32,721 nucleotides of DNA from Candidatus Kaiserbacteria bacterium RIFCSPLOWO2_12_FULL_50_10. GTDB taxonomy: Bacteria > Patescibacteriota > Minisyncoccia > Phycocordibacterales > UBA918. Of the stretch, positions 2-13,824 are shown one piece after another; within the stretch, counting starts at the first letter, position 1; each line of letters opens with the position of its first letter. Under the pieces are notes generated by a model that did no database searches, was not told the origin of the DNA, and saw only the letters and a program-made list of their open reading frames with translations. The stretch is taken from the NCBI GenBank assembly GCA_001783515.1, contig MFMN01000010.1, forward strand, positions 22,060-54,780, written 5' to 3'. Position numbers and translations under genes: made by a program.

Positions 2-94
2 GCTAAATTTCAGCCAGCGCTTCCCGCAGCAAAGGTGCTTGAAGTGCCTGCAGGTACCGCTAAAAAAGAGTGGGTTGGAACAGTTGTGAAGTAA
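2..94 (+). CDS. C-terminal fragment of an unidentified protein (truncated by window edge)
   Basis: Open frame from base 2 (AKFQPALPAAKVLEVPAGTAKKEWVGTVVK*) ending in TAA at 92-94. Confidence 0.55.
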   Translation, partial: AKFQPALPAAKVLEVPAGTAKKEWVGTVVK

Positions 95-8525: not shown

Positions 8526-8532
8526 CATTGAG

Positions 8533-8619
8533 CGGAAAAGGAGGGATTTGAACCCTCGATACCCGTTAGAGTATGCTTGATTTCGAGTCAAGTGCCTTCA
8601 ACCACTCAGCCACTTTTCC
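8533..8619 (-). tRNA. tRNA-Ser (CGA)
   Basis: Reverse complement folds as a class II tRNA with long variable arm; anticodon loop ctcgaaa; acceptor ggaaaag/cttttcc. Confidence 0.93.
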
Positions 8620-8635
8620 ATACGCTCGCATCCAT

Positions 8636-8710
8636 TGCTGCCAGACTAGGAATCGAACCTAGATAGGCGGAACCAAAACCCGCAGTCCTACCTTTAGACG
8701 ATCTGGCAGC
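8636..8710 (-). tRNA. tRNA-Gln (TTG)
   Basis: Reverse complement: acceptor gctgcca/tggcagc, anticodon loop ttttggt, T-loop ttcgatt. Confidence 0.92.
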
Positions 8711-8789
8711 ACCAGAAACGAACGTGTTGACACGATATCATTTTTTAAGAAAAGGTACAACCTTTATCTCATGTGTGGTGCTACGAGTG

Positions 8790-9926
8790 TTAGTCCTCAG
8801 CAAAAAGGGTGATGGTCATTGTTTGGTTGTGCCACTTGCAATTGACACCACTGTCCTCCGTTGGCGCGAGTTCGCCGTTGGTGTAGAAGCCAAATGTTGG
8901 TGTTGTGCCAAGTTCTTTTGCGAGTGCTTCTACCTCGAGATGAGTATTTTCCTTCATAAACGCCTTGCGTCCATAGCAACTTACCGGGAGCGCAAATTGA
9001 GGCTGCATACCAAGCTTTTCCATTGCCTTGTTTGCGGCGCGGCCAGCATGTTCGGCGAGAAGTTCATTAGTGGTATTCATAATGTAGGCATCGGTACCAG
9101 AAGGAATATCGCCGGCAAAAGTGAGACTTTGATGCTCTTTGTCGTATCCAATAACCGTGCGAATAACTTTGCTGCCATCTTTGAGCTGTAGTTCAAGCGG
9201 GAAGGCTCCGCCGGAGGTTGGCAAGTGCGCGGCAAGCTCCTCACCCATAATCTCGGTGAAGACCTCTACGGCAGGGCGGTTGTCGAGTTCGTAGAGTACA
9301 TTGCCGTCCGAGCGGGTAATGGTGTATTTTTTGCTCGTCGCATGCCAGCCGGTCTGCGATGAATAGGCGATATGGATGTGTTTGCCGTAAAAGCCAATGA
9401 GTCCAACCGTGTTGCGTTTTGGTTTTGCATTGAGTCCGACGTATGTTCGTTCCGAGCGGAAACCGTCCGCCGCGAGCGCTCCGGTAACCGCAATGGTATT
9501 GGGTATTGTTGCGTTAATGCCCTCAACAAGTTGTGAGCCGTTCACGCCGACGCCGTCACTTACGACAAAGGCGTGACGAAGGTCGGTGGTTGGCAAAAAT
9601 TCAGCAAGGCGCGCACCTACATCGCGACTCCTGTGAATGTCGTCTATGGTTGTCTCTGCGTACCAGATGCGTGTTTTCTCAAAATAGAGTGCCGCGAGTG
9701 AGAGTGTGCTGTCGAGCAGATCCTTCCCGAGGATTGTCCCCGCATTTGTTGCAATGAGAATGTGTGATTGCGGATAGAGCGTGCGCACCTGTGCGTACAC
9801 ATTCTTTGTTTCAATGATGGCGGTATCGCCAAAAATGAACACGAGCTGTGGTGCTTTGGGTAGCTTTTGTGAGGGCTGTGACCATCCAAGTGATTCGTCC
9901 CACGTGCGTGTATGAACATGTATCAT
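8790..9926 (-). CDS. FIST-domain (FIST_N/FIST_C) sensory protein
   Basis: 378 aa; IAVTGALAADGFRSERTYVGLNAKPKRNTVGLIGFYG and FPLELQLKDGS..VIRTVIGYDKEHQSLTFAGDIPSGT, C-terminal FGFYTNGELAP are FIST hallmarks. Confidence 0.85.
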   Translation of the reverse strand: MIHVHTRTWDESLGWSQPSQKLPKAPQLVFIFGDTAIIETKNVYAQVRTLYPQSHILIATNAGTILGKDLLDSTLSLAALYFEKTRIWYAETTIDDIHRSRDVGARLAEFLPTTDLRHAFVVSDGVGVNGSQLVEGINATIPNTIAVTGALAADGFRSERTYVGLNAKPKRNTVGLIGFYGKHIHIAYSSQTGWHATSKKYTITRSDGNVLYELDNRPAVEVFTEIMGEELAAHLPTSGGAFPLELQLKDGSKVIRTVIGYDKEHQSLTFAGDIPSGTDAYIMNTTNELLAEHAGRAANKAMEKLGMQPQFALPVSCYGRKAFMKENTHLEVEALAKELGTTPTFGFYTNGELAPTEDSGVNCKWHNQTMTITLFAED

Positions 9927-10068
9927 ATATCTCTATTAGTTTCTAAGAATACTACGATAAGCATACCACGGGTTTGCGGATTGCATACATCAGCTGGCTG
10001 TGCTTGAGGTGTTTTCAAGATATGTGCTACACTAAAACATAGAGACGCGGGACGTCTCCTGCAACACT

Positions 10069-10779
10069 ATGTCACTTTCAATGTTACTTCTTACCGCAGG
10101 CTCATATCTTCTTGCTATCATGGCAGTATGGTTTGCTGTGCTGGAGATGCGACGCAAAAAAAGCATCGCCCGCGGTATCCTGCTGTGGCTTCTGAGTGTG
10201 CCGTTTGCATTCGTTGCAAGCTATGCCTTTGGAGGCTCATTTCTTTTTGTGCCTGATTTCATGTCACACATTAATGGTATTGTGCTCCTTGCTTATTTTG
10301 CGATTGAGTTCCTTTTGTACGCAGAGATGCAAGGTGGACGCACGCAGATATATTGGCTCATTCTCGGCTCCTCATTTCTCGTTGTGCTCGGGCTTATCGG
10401 GGGATACTTTGTGCCGAATGCATACCATGAAGTTTTCTTCATCTCAATAAAACTACCAATCTTCTTGATGCTTGCGTACATGCTGGTGTATGTATGGCCA
10501 ACATTTATTCATGCTCACTTACGAGTGCTCTCGCTTCTGTGGGGTGCCGTCTTGATTATCGATGCGATTGGTGAACTTTTCTTTGAAATGCCAGAACTAT
10601 TGGATTCTGCGCTCCATATGTCAGGTGGGGTCCTTGGAGTATTCTTTATTATTGGGTATCTCAACGCGCTCGATATGCGCGAGTATTTGCCAGCATTGTA
10701 CTACTTTAATACGCGTCGAGCCTTACTGTACACGGTTTGTGTGCTGCTTGCGGCCGCAGGACTTGTCGCCCTTATGTAG
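10069..10779 (+). CDS. Polytopic (about 7 TM) membrane protein of unknown function, divergent from the FIST gene
   Basis: 236 aa with repeated hydrophobic segments. Confidence 0.7.
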   Translation: MSLSMLLLTAGSYLLAIMAVWFAVLEMRRKKSIARGILLWLLSVPFAFVASYAFGGSFLFVPDFMSHINGIVLLAYFAIEFLLYAEMQGGRTQIYWLILGSSFLVVLGLIGGYFVPNAYHEVFFISIKLPIFLMLAYMLVYVWPTFIHAHLRVLSLLWGAVLIIDAIGELFFEMPELLDSALHMSGGVLGVFFIIGYLNALDMREYLPALYYFNTRRALLYTVCVLLAAAGLVALM

Positions 10780-10875
10780 CCCAGAGCGAGCGTACTTTTT
10801 TCCTGTAAACTAAGGGAAAGCGGGAATCCCTCAAAAAGTTGCGTTTTTTAGAATTTCTTGTATAGTAGCGTCACT

Positions 10876-11202
10876 ATGGAAAAAGAAGTACAGTCATTCG
10901 CGGTCATCGAAACCGGCGGCAAGCAGTACAAGGTCGCGGTTGGCGATGTTCTTGATGTTGAACTCCTCGGCGAACTCGAAGAAGGCGCTGATGTTGTCTT
11001 CGATAAGGTTCTCCTTACAGAAAACAATGGCGACACTAAGATCGGTACCCCGTACCTCGCAGGCGCAAAGGTTTCTGCAAAGTATGTTGGTCTCGCAGCA
11101 GGTCCGAAGATTACTATCGTTCGTTACCAGCAGAAGAGTAACCGTGACCGCAAGCAGGGTCATCGCCAGAAGTACGCTCGTGTAGAGATTATGGCGATCT
11201 AA
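10876..11202 (+). CDS. rplU: 50S ribosomal protein L21
   Basis: FAVIETGGKQYKVAVGDVLDVELL...ITIVRYQQKSNRDRKQGHRQKYARVEIMAI. Confidence 0.96.
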   Translation: MEKEVQSFAVIETGGKQYKVAVGDVLDVELLGELEEGADVVFDKVLLTENNGDTKIGTPYLAGAKVSAKYVGLAAGPKITIVRYQQKSNRDRKQGHRQKYARVEIMAI

Positions 11203-11247
11203 TAAAAACAGTATTGTAAATTCTGAGCCCGATTGCGACACAGGATG

Positions 11248-11359
11248 AAACATAGTGCATTTGGAGCCGGCTTAGCTCAGTTGGTAGAGCAATGGTTTTG
11301 TAACCCATAGGTCGTCAGTTCGACTCTGACAGCCGGCTCCAAATGCACTATGTTTTTTT
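11248..11359 (+). repeat. Perfect 25-bp inverted repeat embedding tRNA-Thr, followed by T7
   Basis: aaacatagtgcatttggagccggct (11248-11272) versus agccggctccaaatgcactatgttt (11331-11355), exact reverse complements. Confidence 0.95.
11266..11341 (+). tRNA. tRNA-Thr (TGT)
   Basis: Acceptor gccggct/agccggc, discriminator t plus encoded CCA, anticodon loop tttgtaa, T-loop ttcgact. Confidence 0.93.
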
Positions 11360-11496
11360 GTGCCTGCCTATTTTTTACCCTAAACCAATAGGTATGAAGA
11401 GCCCGACCGCTTCGCGGACCAGGTCGGTCTCACTGCTAAGGATGTCGACCTCCGTCGACACTTCACAAATATGTTTGCTGGAGCAAACATAGCAGA

Positions 11497-11521
11497 TCAG
11501 TTCGACTCTGACAGCCGGCTC
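11497..11521 (+). repeat. Exact 25-nt copy of the tRNA-Thr 3' segment
   Basis: tcagttcgactctgacagccggctc identical at 11315-11339 and 11497-11521. Confidence 0.95.
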
Positions 11522-11540
11522 TCGGTACTTTATGAGGAGG

Positions 11541-11570
11541 ATACACTAATAATCTTAGTGTATTTTTTTT
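11541..11570 (+). terminator. Intrinsic terminator after the tRNA-Thr locus
   Basis: atacactaataatcttagtgtatttttttt. Confidence 0.85.
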
Positions 11571-11596
11571 GACAATTTACGCTGCGCCAGTATGCT
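11569..11596 (+). promoter_or_regulatory. Putative sigma-70-type promoter of valS
   Basis: ttgaca (11569-11574), 16-nt spacer, tatgct (11591-11596), 8 nt before ATG at 11605. Confidence 0.6.
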
Positions 11597-11604
11597 GTAC
11601 GAAT

Positions 11605-13824
11605 ATGAATGAAGGACAACTGAAGGGGAGCGCGCCGGAGATTTTTTCATCGGCGTATAATCACTTGGAGCACGAAGATACGCGATATAAGGAGTGGGAA
11701 GCTTCGGCGCTTTTTAGTCCTGATACTTGTATTGCAGAAGGTATTGCTGCGCCTGATGCGGAGACGTTCTCTATTGTGCTCCCACCGCCAAACGTCACAG
11801 GTACCCTCCATGTGGGGCATGCTTCCATGCTCGCCATTCAAGACATTCTCGTGCGGTACCATCGCATGCGCGGTCACAGAACGCTATGGATTCCTGGCAC
11901 CGACTCTGCAGCGCTTGCGACACAATCAAAGGTTGAAGAAATAATCTATAAAGCAGAAAAGAAAACACGTCACGATATTGGTCGTGAAGAGCTTTTGGTA
12001 CGTATCGATGCCTTTGCAAAAGAAAGTGAAGCAACTATTCTCGGACAAACAAGAAAAATGGGCTCCTCGCTCGATTGGTCGCGCTATGCATTCACGATGG
12101 ACGAAGCGCGCAACAAAGCTGTCACAGAAGCCTTTGTGCGCATGTACGAGAAAGGACTTATTTACCGCGGTAGTCGCATCGTGAACTGGGATCCAAACCT
12201 GCAAACAACGGTGTCTGATGATGAGATTGAGTATAAAGAAGAAACGACGAAGTTTTATTATCTCAAATACGGACCGTTTACCATTGGTACGTCTCGCCCG
12301 GAAACAAAATTCGGCGATAAGTATGTGGTGATGCATCCAGATGATGCTCGGTATGCGGAGTATACACACGGACAAAAAATAACTGTCGAGTGGATCAATG
12401 GGGAAGTCGAAGCAACTATCATCAAGGATGAAGCAATTGATCCAGAATTTGGTACTGGCGTCATGACAATCACCCCATGGCATTCTGCGGTTGACTTTGA
12501 AATTGCCGAACGGCACGGACTTTCTCGTGAGCAAATAATCGATGAGCGCGGCATCCTTCTCCCTATTGCCGGCGAATTCGCGGGGCAGCACATCAAGAAA
12601 GCGCGCGCGGCACTTATTGAAAAGCTTGCCGCAAAGGGGCTTGTGGAAAAAGTGGACGAAGCATACGTGCATAATCTCGCACTTAACAGTCGAGGCGGCG
12701 GCACAATAGAGCCGCAAATCAAAGCACAGTGGTTTATCGGTGTTGAAAAACCGTTTATCATTGAACACTCAGAAATATCAGGCGTGCCGTCGGGTTCTGA
12801 AGTTACCTTGAAGTCACTGATGAAGGCTGCGGTACAATTCGGTGATGTTACCATTGCACCGGATCGTTTCGATAAGATTTACTATCACTGGATTAACAAT
12901 CTTCGGGACTGGTGCATTTCACGTCAGATTTGGTACGGGCATCGCATTCCGGTGTGGTACAAAGGAGATGAAATTTTTGTAGGAACTGCCGCGCCAGAAG
13001 GCGAAGGCTGGACGCAAGAATCCGACACACTCGACACGTGGTTTTCTTCGGGGCTTTGGACCTTCTCAACACTCGGCTGGCCAGAACAAACAGCTGACCT
13101 TAAAAACTATCACCCAACCGCCGTACTCGAAACAGGCTACGACATTCTCTTTTTCTGGGTGGCACGCATGGTGCTTATGTCGACATTCCTCCTCGGGCAG
13201 GTGCCATTCAAAAATGTGTATCTTCACGGGCTCGTTCGTGACGAGAAGGGAAGAAAGATGTCAAAGTCACTTGGCAACATTGTGAATCCACTTGACCTTA
13301 TTGAGAAGTATGGCGCCGACGCGCTCCGTATGGGGCTTATCCTTGGTGCCGCACCTGGCAATGACCTCAACCTTTCTGAACAGAAAATAAAAGGCTACAA
13401 GCATTTTGCAAACAAGATGTGGAATATCACCCGCATGATTCTCATGAATACCGACGTGAGCCTCTACGCAAAACGAGCGGCGGTAGCACAGCATCCGCGC
13501 GATACTGAAATCCTTGCACAACTTGATGCGACGCATGCAGAAATTACGGCACACATGGAGGCATTCGAACTCCATCTCGCCGCAGAAAAGTTTTATCACT
13601 ATGTGTGGCACGAACTCGCCGATCAAATTCTCGAAGAGTCGAAAGAGGTGCTCCATGGTGAGGATGCAGGTGCTCGCGAAGCGCGGGCAGTCGCGCTCAT
13701 GCAGGTGCTTTTGAAGACCCTCACGATGCTCCATCCATTCATGCCGTTCTTGACCGAAACAATATATCAAAACCTTCCCGAAGAACTTCGGGAAGAGAAG
13801 TTCCTCATGGTTCGTAAGTGGTAG
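11605..13824 (+). CDS. valS: Valyl-tRNA synthetase
   Basis: FSIVLPPPNVTGTLHVGHA (HIGH), GRKMSKSLGNIVNP (KMSKS), NLRDWCISRQIWYGHRIPVWY; start placed at ATG 11605 because the upstream extension overlaps a terminator/promoter. Confidence 0.95.
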   Translation: MNEGQLKGSAPEIFSSAYNHLEHEDTRYKEWEASALFSPDTCIAEGIAAPDAETFSIVLPPPNVTGTLHVGHASMLAIQDILVRYHRMRGHRTLWIPGTDSAALATQSKVEEIIYKAEKKTRHDIGREELLVRIDAFAKESEATILGQTRKMGSSLDWSRYAFTMDEARNKAVTEAFVRMYEKGLIYRGSRIVNWDPNLQTTVSDDEIEYKEETTKFYYLKYGPFTIGTSRPETKFGDKYVVMHPDDARYAEYTHGQKITVEWINGEVEATIIKDEAIDPEFGTGVMTITPWHSAVDFEIAERHGLSREQIIDERGILLPIAGEFAGQHIKKARAALIEKLAAKGLVEKVDEAYVHNLALNSRGGGTIEPQIKAQWFIGVEKPFIIEHSEISGVPSGSEVTLKSLMKAAVQFGDVTIAPDRFDKIYYHWINNLRDWCISRQIWYGHRIPVWYKGDEIFVGTAAPEGEGWTQESDTLDTWFSSGLWTFSTLGWPEQTADLKNYHPTAVLETGYDILFFWVARMVLMSTFLLGQVPFKNVYLHGLVRDEKGRKMSKSLGNIVNPLDLIEKYGADALRMGLILGAAPGNDLNLSEQKIKGYKHFANKMWNITRMILMNTDVSLYAKRAAVAQHPRDTEILAQLDATHAEITAHMEAFELHLAAEKFYHYVWHELADQILEESKEVLHGEDAGAREARAVALMQVLLKTLTMLHPFMPFLTETIYQNLPEELREEKFLMVRKW

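Follow-up and report, generated by a model that had tools for sequence, protein, structure and literature searches.

Why should a tRNA gene stand at the apex of a long, perfect palindrome? The question is raised by the only tRNA-Thr with a UGU anticodon found in a genome of 819 kb that lies close to Ca. Kaiserbacteria (G000, hereafter the window genome), from which a 32,721-nt stretch of DNA, the window, was analyzed. The sequences at 11248-11272 and 11331-11355 form a perfect inverted repeat (25 nt each, 100% complementary, separated by 58 nt), in which the seven pairs of the acceptor stem run on without interruption into 18 flanking pairs; the resulting long helix encloses the tRNA, coaxially stacked on its terminal stem. 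T73 and the encoded CCA fall within the right arm, a G-U adds a 19th outer pair, and the first three T of a closing T7 run pair with AAA at 11248-11250. A sequence-only reading of this DNA had described just such a 25-bp extension of the acceptor stem, with CCA and T7 included, and it is borne out by the complementarity and by the predicted fold (MFE of -64.2 kcal/mol versus -32.4 +/- 3.6 in shuffles, z = -8.9). The structure has the following parts:

11248..11265, + strand: left arm, the leader strand (AAACATAGTGCATTTGGA), perfectly complementary to 11338-11355
11266..11341, + strand: tRNA-Thr(UGU), nt 1-73 plus the encoded CCA at 11339-11341 (ARAGORN; Rfam RF00005, 68.6 bits)
11338..11355, + strand: right arm, the trailer strand, running from discriminator T73 and including CCA, assigned by its complementarity to the left arm
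11353..11359, + strand: T7 run closing the helix end, read from the sequence

Other tRNAs of the window genome rarely look like this. A tRNA-Gln(CUG) has 34 leader-trailer pairs in its MFE structure, tRNA-Ile(GAU) has eight continuous leader/trailer pairs and tRNA-Gln(UUG) has a weak stem extension; the remainder show 0-1 continuous pairs, the best score being 4 for one tRNA-Ile(UAU). Together with the shuffle z and the leader/trailer swaps described below, this comparison rules out a chance origin of the 25-bp helix. Rfam at its gathering threshold returned nothing except the tRNA between 10700 and 11700, and a permissive search, extended to the loci of ten relatives, otherwise gave matches below gathering only, arguing against a known RNA family other than tRNA. 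A second genomic copy of the arms was not found at a sensitivity of about 20 identical nt, which argues against a mobile family built of the arms. Downstream of the tRNA lies a 751-aa ORF with the Pfam domains tRNA-synt_1 and Anticodon_1, from which we read it as a putative valyl-tRNA synthetase; it is 89% identical to its counterpart in Ca. Kaiserbacteria bacterium RIFCSPHIGHO2_02_FULL_49_34, where the tRNA-Thr locus has the same arrangement as in the window. On the upstream side (window 8532-11265, compared with L063/L004), the rplU/tRNA-Ser/tRNA-Gln segment is arranged differently in the window genome and its same-genus relative.

The palindrome recurs well beyond this genome, a recurrence that, like the nesting described below, goes beyond the sequence-only reading. 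When tRNA-Thr(UGU) loci were gathered from the family and the order and pairing was measured in register with the tRNA ends, 15 of the 43 family loci had at least 10 (10-19) continuous leader/trailer pairs. Values from two to nine did not occur at any of the 42 loci with full flanks, so that stem lengths are bimodal. When leaders and trailers were exchanged among family loci, 5 of the 1722 combinations reached at least 10 continuous pairs, against 15 of 42 real loci; these swaps and the z of -8.9 put the perfect match over 18 flanking bases, which the earlier reading took to suggest selection or recent origin, far beyond chance. Arm sequences vary by locus (for example attgattcccctga/tcaggggaatcaat in G022 and gtaaaaggcttgga/tccaagccttttat in G064). 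Elsewhere in the order, 89 of 90 tRNA-Thr(UGU) loci had 0-1 pairs and the other had 14. Comparable stalks surround tRNA-Gln(CUG) in five of 30 fetched genomes, the window genome among them, as imperfect helices whose MFE structures contain 30-34 leader-trailer pairs; across the tRNA-Thr and tRNA-Gln(CUG) stems, z ranged from -4 to -10. As a separate observation, five genomes of the family (G057, G004, G011, G015 and G023) carry tRNA-Thr(UGU) in the same intergenic slot with its orientation flipped relative to conserved neighbours.

The stalked tRNA of the window also sits among pieces of what appears to be an older copy of itself, in part recognized only by alignment to clearer remnants in G001, a genome of the same genus:

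11227..11234, + strand: putative 5'-terminal remnant of an outer tRNA-Thr copy, weakly preserved (GCCCGATT versus GCCGGCTT) and recognized only through alignment to the clearer G001 remnant
11383..11393, + strand: outer-copy remnant comprising the 3' strand of the anticodon stem and the variable loop (AACCAATAGGT), from alignment to AACCCATAGGT of G001
11398..11502, + strand: E1, a multi-hairpin element of ~105 nt between two outer-copy pieces, its last bases being those of the copy; dispersed in the window genome
11497..11521, + strand: 25 nt that make up the outer copy's 3' end and match the functional tRNA exactly in its T-arm and acceptor 3' strand (direct repeat with 11306-11339)

In G001, the corresponding region is a nearly whole tRNA-Thr copy with hairpin insertions, GAGCCGGCTT lying upstream and GGCTCAGTTGG... 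downstream of the stalked tRNA. Insertions interrupt the outer tRNA-Thr copies of G001 and G021, close to nt 8 and within the anticodon loop; it is in this loop that the G021 copy is split. Among tRNA-Thr loci, significant downstream tRNA copies (a count that takes in one 5' piece and one anticodon piece) accompanied 11 of 15 stems and 8 of 61 loci without a stem (p = 1e-5); three of the 15 stem-bearing loci had no detectable tRNA remnant on either side. Outside the family, one locus (L310) repeats the tRNA 3' end downstream, along with the right arm. Nesting extends to tRNA-Gln(CUG), where significant local alignments in G000, G001, G011 and G024 place outer nt 1-19..34 upstream and nt 14..33-71 downstream. 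In G024 (L239, contig C4), a second, otherwise intact tRNA-Gln copy is broken in its D-loop, where an intact tRNA-Gln(CUG) stands on a long hairpin; both parts of the broken copy (nt 1-20 upstream and ~19-72 downstream) are identical to the inner tRNA.

Signals for the end of transcription differ between loci with and without the stem. A classical terminator followed within 120 nt of tRNA-Thr at 1 of 14 stem-bearing family loci versus 15 of 26 without (p = 0.002), a contrast that is not significant within 80 nt (1 of 14 versus 7 of 26). TTTT occurred in the first 28 nt of the trailer at 10 of 14 stem-bearing loci versus 2 of 26 others (p = 6e-5). In the window, a consensus terminator scan of 11150-11650 found none, and the one candidate read by eye is too AT-rich for that scan:

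11541..11570, + strand: AT-rich hairpin resembling a terminator, with T8, ~200 nt beyond the tRNA, read from the sequence

The idea that the tRNA itself could form the loop of a terminator thus survives in part: the missing terminators and the T-runs fit it. A T4 run is lacking at 4 of the 15 family tRNA-Thr stems, so that termination cannot account for everything, and the hairpin at 11541-11570 also speaks against a terminating stalk in the window. Nor does it appear universal, given that tRNA-Gln stems show no enrichment of T-runs.

We propose, with moderate confidence, that tRNA-Thr(UGU) is a stalked tRNA nested in an older copy, and that its leader-trailer helix acts as both terminator and processing stalk. 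The functional tRNA forms the apex of a long palindrome inside a decaying older copy of the same tRNA, the palindrome having probably formed or been inserted as one unit. If the leader is transcribed, the arms would fold coaxially on the acceptor stem, and helix plus U-run would take the place of the classical terminator found behind tRNA-Thr(UGU) in most family relatives. To release the tRNA end, the helix would then have to be cut or opened, presumably by RNase III, with RNase P and 3' trimming acting afterwards. Two or more pairs between leader and RCCA slow bacterial RNase P in published kinetics (PMC9433436); because such pairing is inhibitory, RNase P alone should be slow on the stalk, and the earlier suggestion that the helix hides the RNase P site is biochemically sound. 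The window genome encodes RNase III (240.9 bits, above the cut-off), as does every well-assembled relative tested; its match to RNase P RNA, at 91.4 bits (E 6e-29), falls short of the gathering score of 100.

The main rival to this stalked tRNA is a process acting on DNA and without RNA function. A palindrome produced by fold-back template switching at the acceptor-stem repeat, or by palindromic insertion, would yield an RNA helix that is incidental and unselected; we regard this as somewhat unlikely, and several of our observations are what it would lead one to expect. On a tree of three flanking proteins, from which G000 and G001 were left out, Fitch parsimony gave 13 changes for 14 stem-bearing tips, and shuffled labels did as well. 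Such scattered presence rules against inheritance of the stem from a single ancestor, indicates that whole stems are gained and lost fast, and agrees with a DNA-level origin, as do the all-or-none stem lengths and the hairpin insertions in tRNA remnants. So too do inverted copies (11-19 nt) of a tRNA's own 3' end, generally just past the terminator hairpin, which lie downstream of the Ala, Val, Trp, Gly, Pro and His tRNAs of the window genome (L041, L043, L044, L046, L047 and L058) and of tRNAs in many relatives. Palindromic rearrangement is therefore common around the tRNAs of this genome, and we take the tRNA-Thr stem to be one product of it.

Comparison of relatives, which the sequence-only reading had recommended as a check on pairing despite sequence change, cuts both ways. 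Each arm shows two differences between G000 and G001: an A-T pair in one genome is G-C in the other, a compensatory change, and a G-C pair of G000, among the 18 outer ones, is a mismatch in G001. Between G021 and G024, a 2-nt TG/CA indel is mirrored in both arms. For tRNA-Gln(CUG), G000 and G001 have an identical tRNA and dissimilar arms, with 34 leader-trailer pairs in each. Pairing in these cases mostly survives sequence change, which is consistent with selection and also with repeated fold-back copying; fold-back correction could mimic compensation, and dissimilar arms in sister genomes also suit a DNA-level process. Neither the scarcity of classical terminators nor the T-runs would be expected from that process, however, and against it the arms, compensated pair included, change more slowly between G000 and G001 than the intergenic DNA beyond them.

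Hairpin elements also occur near the stalked tRNA. E1 has several copies in the window genome (C3, C9, C23 and C28 among the sites) and on several G001 contigs, and two of its stems show paired changes between G000 and G001. Most copies adjoin tRNA genes (Phe, Ile, Lys, Tyr/Leu and Thr), and at Phe, Ile and Lys the element sits in the D-loop of a partial copy of a tRNA; one E1 copy (L290) had no tRNA in the fetched flanks. The window copy matched nothing in Rfam at the gathering threshold. It is possible, but rather doubtful, that hairpin elements of Patescibacteria insert into tRNA loops and that some carry a complete target tRNA at the tip, replacing the tRNA they break. The tRNA-Gln(CUG) of G024 would be the clearest case of an element replacing its target at the moment of breakage, and its nested arrangement could yield two tRNAs from one transcript.

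Further structured sequences occur around these tRNAs. E2 is a hairpin insertion in the tRNA-Thr copies of L006, L281, L260 and L164, with a conserved internal loop (TGCNCTCG or TTCTCTCGTTCG / CTCGNTT), and E2-like motifs are present in the tRNA-Gln(CUG) stalks of G000, G001 and G024; apart from four or five clear cases, a motif script for E2 barely exceeded shuffles. A tRNA-like element lies 75-120 nt upstream of tRNA-Thr(UGU) at L166, L026, L013, L203 and others, and at L195 downstream as well. It consists of tRNA-Thr nt 1-24 followed by a hairpin, mostly with a YGGGR loop and a strongly covarying stem, and often by a second hairpin around the anticodon. Clear examples occur in about ten of the 297 order genomes, and a covariance model of the element (R1) mostly matched the 5' half of tRNA-Thr itself. 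Behind tRNA-Thr at L195 (G105), L206 (G046) and L032 (G018) are tandem units of ~84-105 nt, each ending in the tRNA 3' end.

Control of maturation, in which a helix hiding the CCA and the RNase P site would make release of tRNA-Thr(UGU) depend on a slow or regulated step, seems improbable. The kinetics of leader:RCCA pairing (PMC9433436) and the covering of T73 and CCA by the window helix speak for it; against it, 28 of the 43 family loci manage without the helix, stem presence is scattered, and no downstream gene or signal is tied to the helix.

The left arm also contains a candidate promoter element:

11251..11256, + strand: -10-like CATAGT within the left-arm sequence, 9 nt ahead of the tRNA, from hexamer scoring and a consensus match only

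A distance of 9 nt is the commonest -10 position among the other tRNAs of the window genome, and the counterpart within the left arm of G001 reads CATAAT. The arm may therefore not always be transcribed, and some tRNA-Thr transcripts may start inside it. These same hexamers could be taken to mean that the left arm holds a -10 box and that the right arm is its inverted copy, driving antisense transcription. We judge such a mirrored promoter very unlikely: a minus-strand consensus promoter was not found, and several other stem-bearing loci have their better -10-like hexamer outside and upstream of the arm, 24-35 nt before the tRNA (L007, gap 24; L009, gap 28; L016, gap 34; L006, gap 35). False palindromes from assembly or amplification, conceivable in what appear to be many-contig metagenome assemblies, are the least credible explanation, given that stems appear in many independent assemblies and always in register with tRNA ends, and that the same locus has diverged arms in G001 and in the Kaiserbacteria record L063.

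In the open-access literature searched, we came across no tRNA gene described as standing on a terminator-like stalk or lying within a copy of itself, though the stalked tRNA shares traits with several known systems. The leader-trailer helices of pre-16S and pre-23S rRNA are long, coaxial with the RNA ends, supported by covariation and cut by RNase III (PMC10250234). Like them, the tRNA stalk is a long helix built from the two flanks of a structured RNA and coaxial with the ends of that RNA; unlike them, it flanks a single tRNA, occurs in relatives only one time in three, frequently closes with a U-run and sits inside a tRNA remnant. With intrinsic (Rho-independent) terminators it shares a stem followed by a U-run (here T7 directly at the stem end) and the absence of a classical terminator where the stem is present. 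Those terminators have a G+C-rich stem and a loop of 3-9 nt, whereas the loop of the stalk is the whole 72-nt tRNA and its U-run is partly paired, or absent at some loci.

Integrative elements at tRNA 3' ends likewise leave a downstream direct repeat of the tRNA 3' end (25 nt here, 11497-11521). In the window, however, only ~160 nt separate tRNA and repeat, with no integrase and no ORF of at least 80 aa in the interval; moreover, the break in the clear cases falls within the D-loop or the anticodon loop, and duplication takes in the entire tRNA. Rickettsia palindromic elements and mitochondrial repetitive hairpin-forming elements (PMC2800124) are small hairpins scattered in or beside genes, and E1 resembles such dispersed palindromes in having several related genomic copies. 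The stalk differs from them: its arms are not a repeat family in the window genome, its loop is a functional tRNA, and its site is the tRNA's own older copy. Finally, the halves of the outer copy are parted by other sequence, as in the split and permuted tRNA genes of archaea and algae (PMC3978253), but the functional tRNA is contiguous (11266-11341) and the outer copy usually degenerate.

If the stalked-tRNA explanation is right, a terminator and processing stalk can be made around the tRNA itself, and RNase P, slowed by pairing between leader and CCA, would need the help of another enzyme in these reduced genomes. Nesting and the family-wide gain and loss of stems provide a natural series for how palindromes arise at tRNA genes, a series that also bears on why tRNAs are targets of insertion and on whether the fragments of the outer copy are used.
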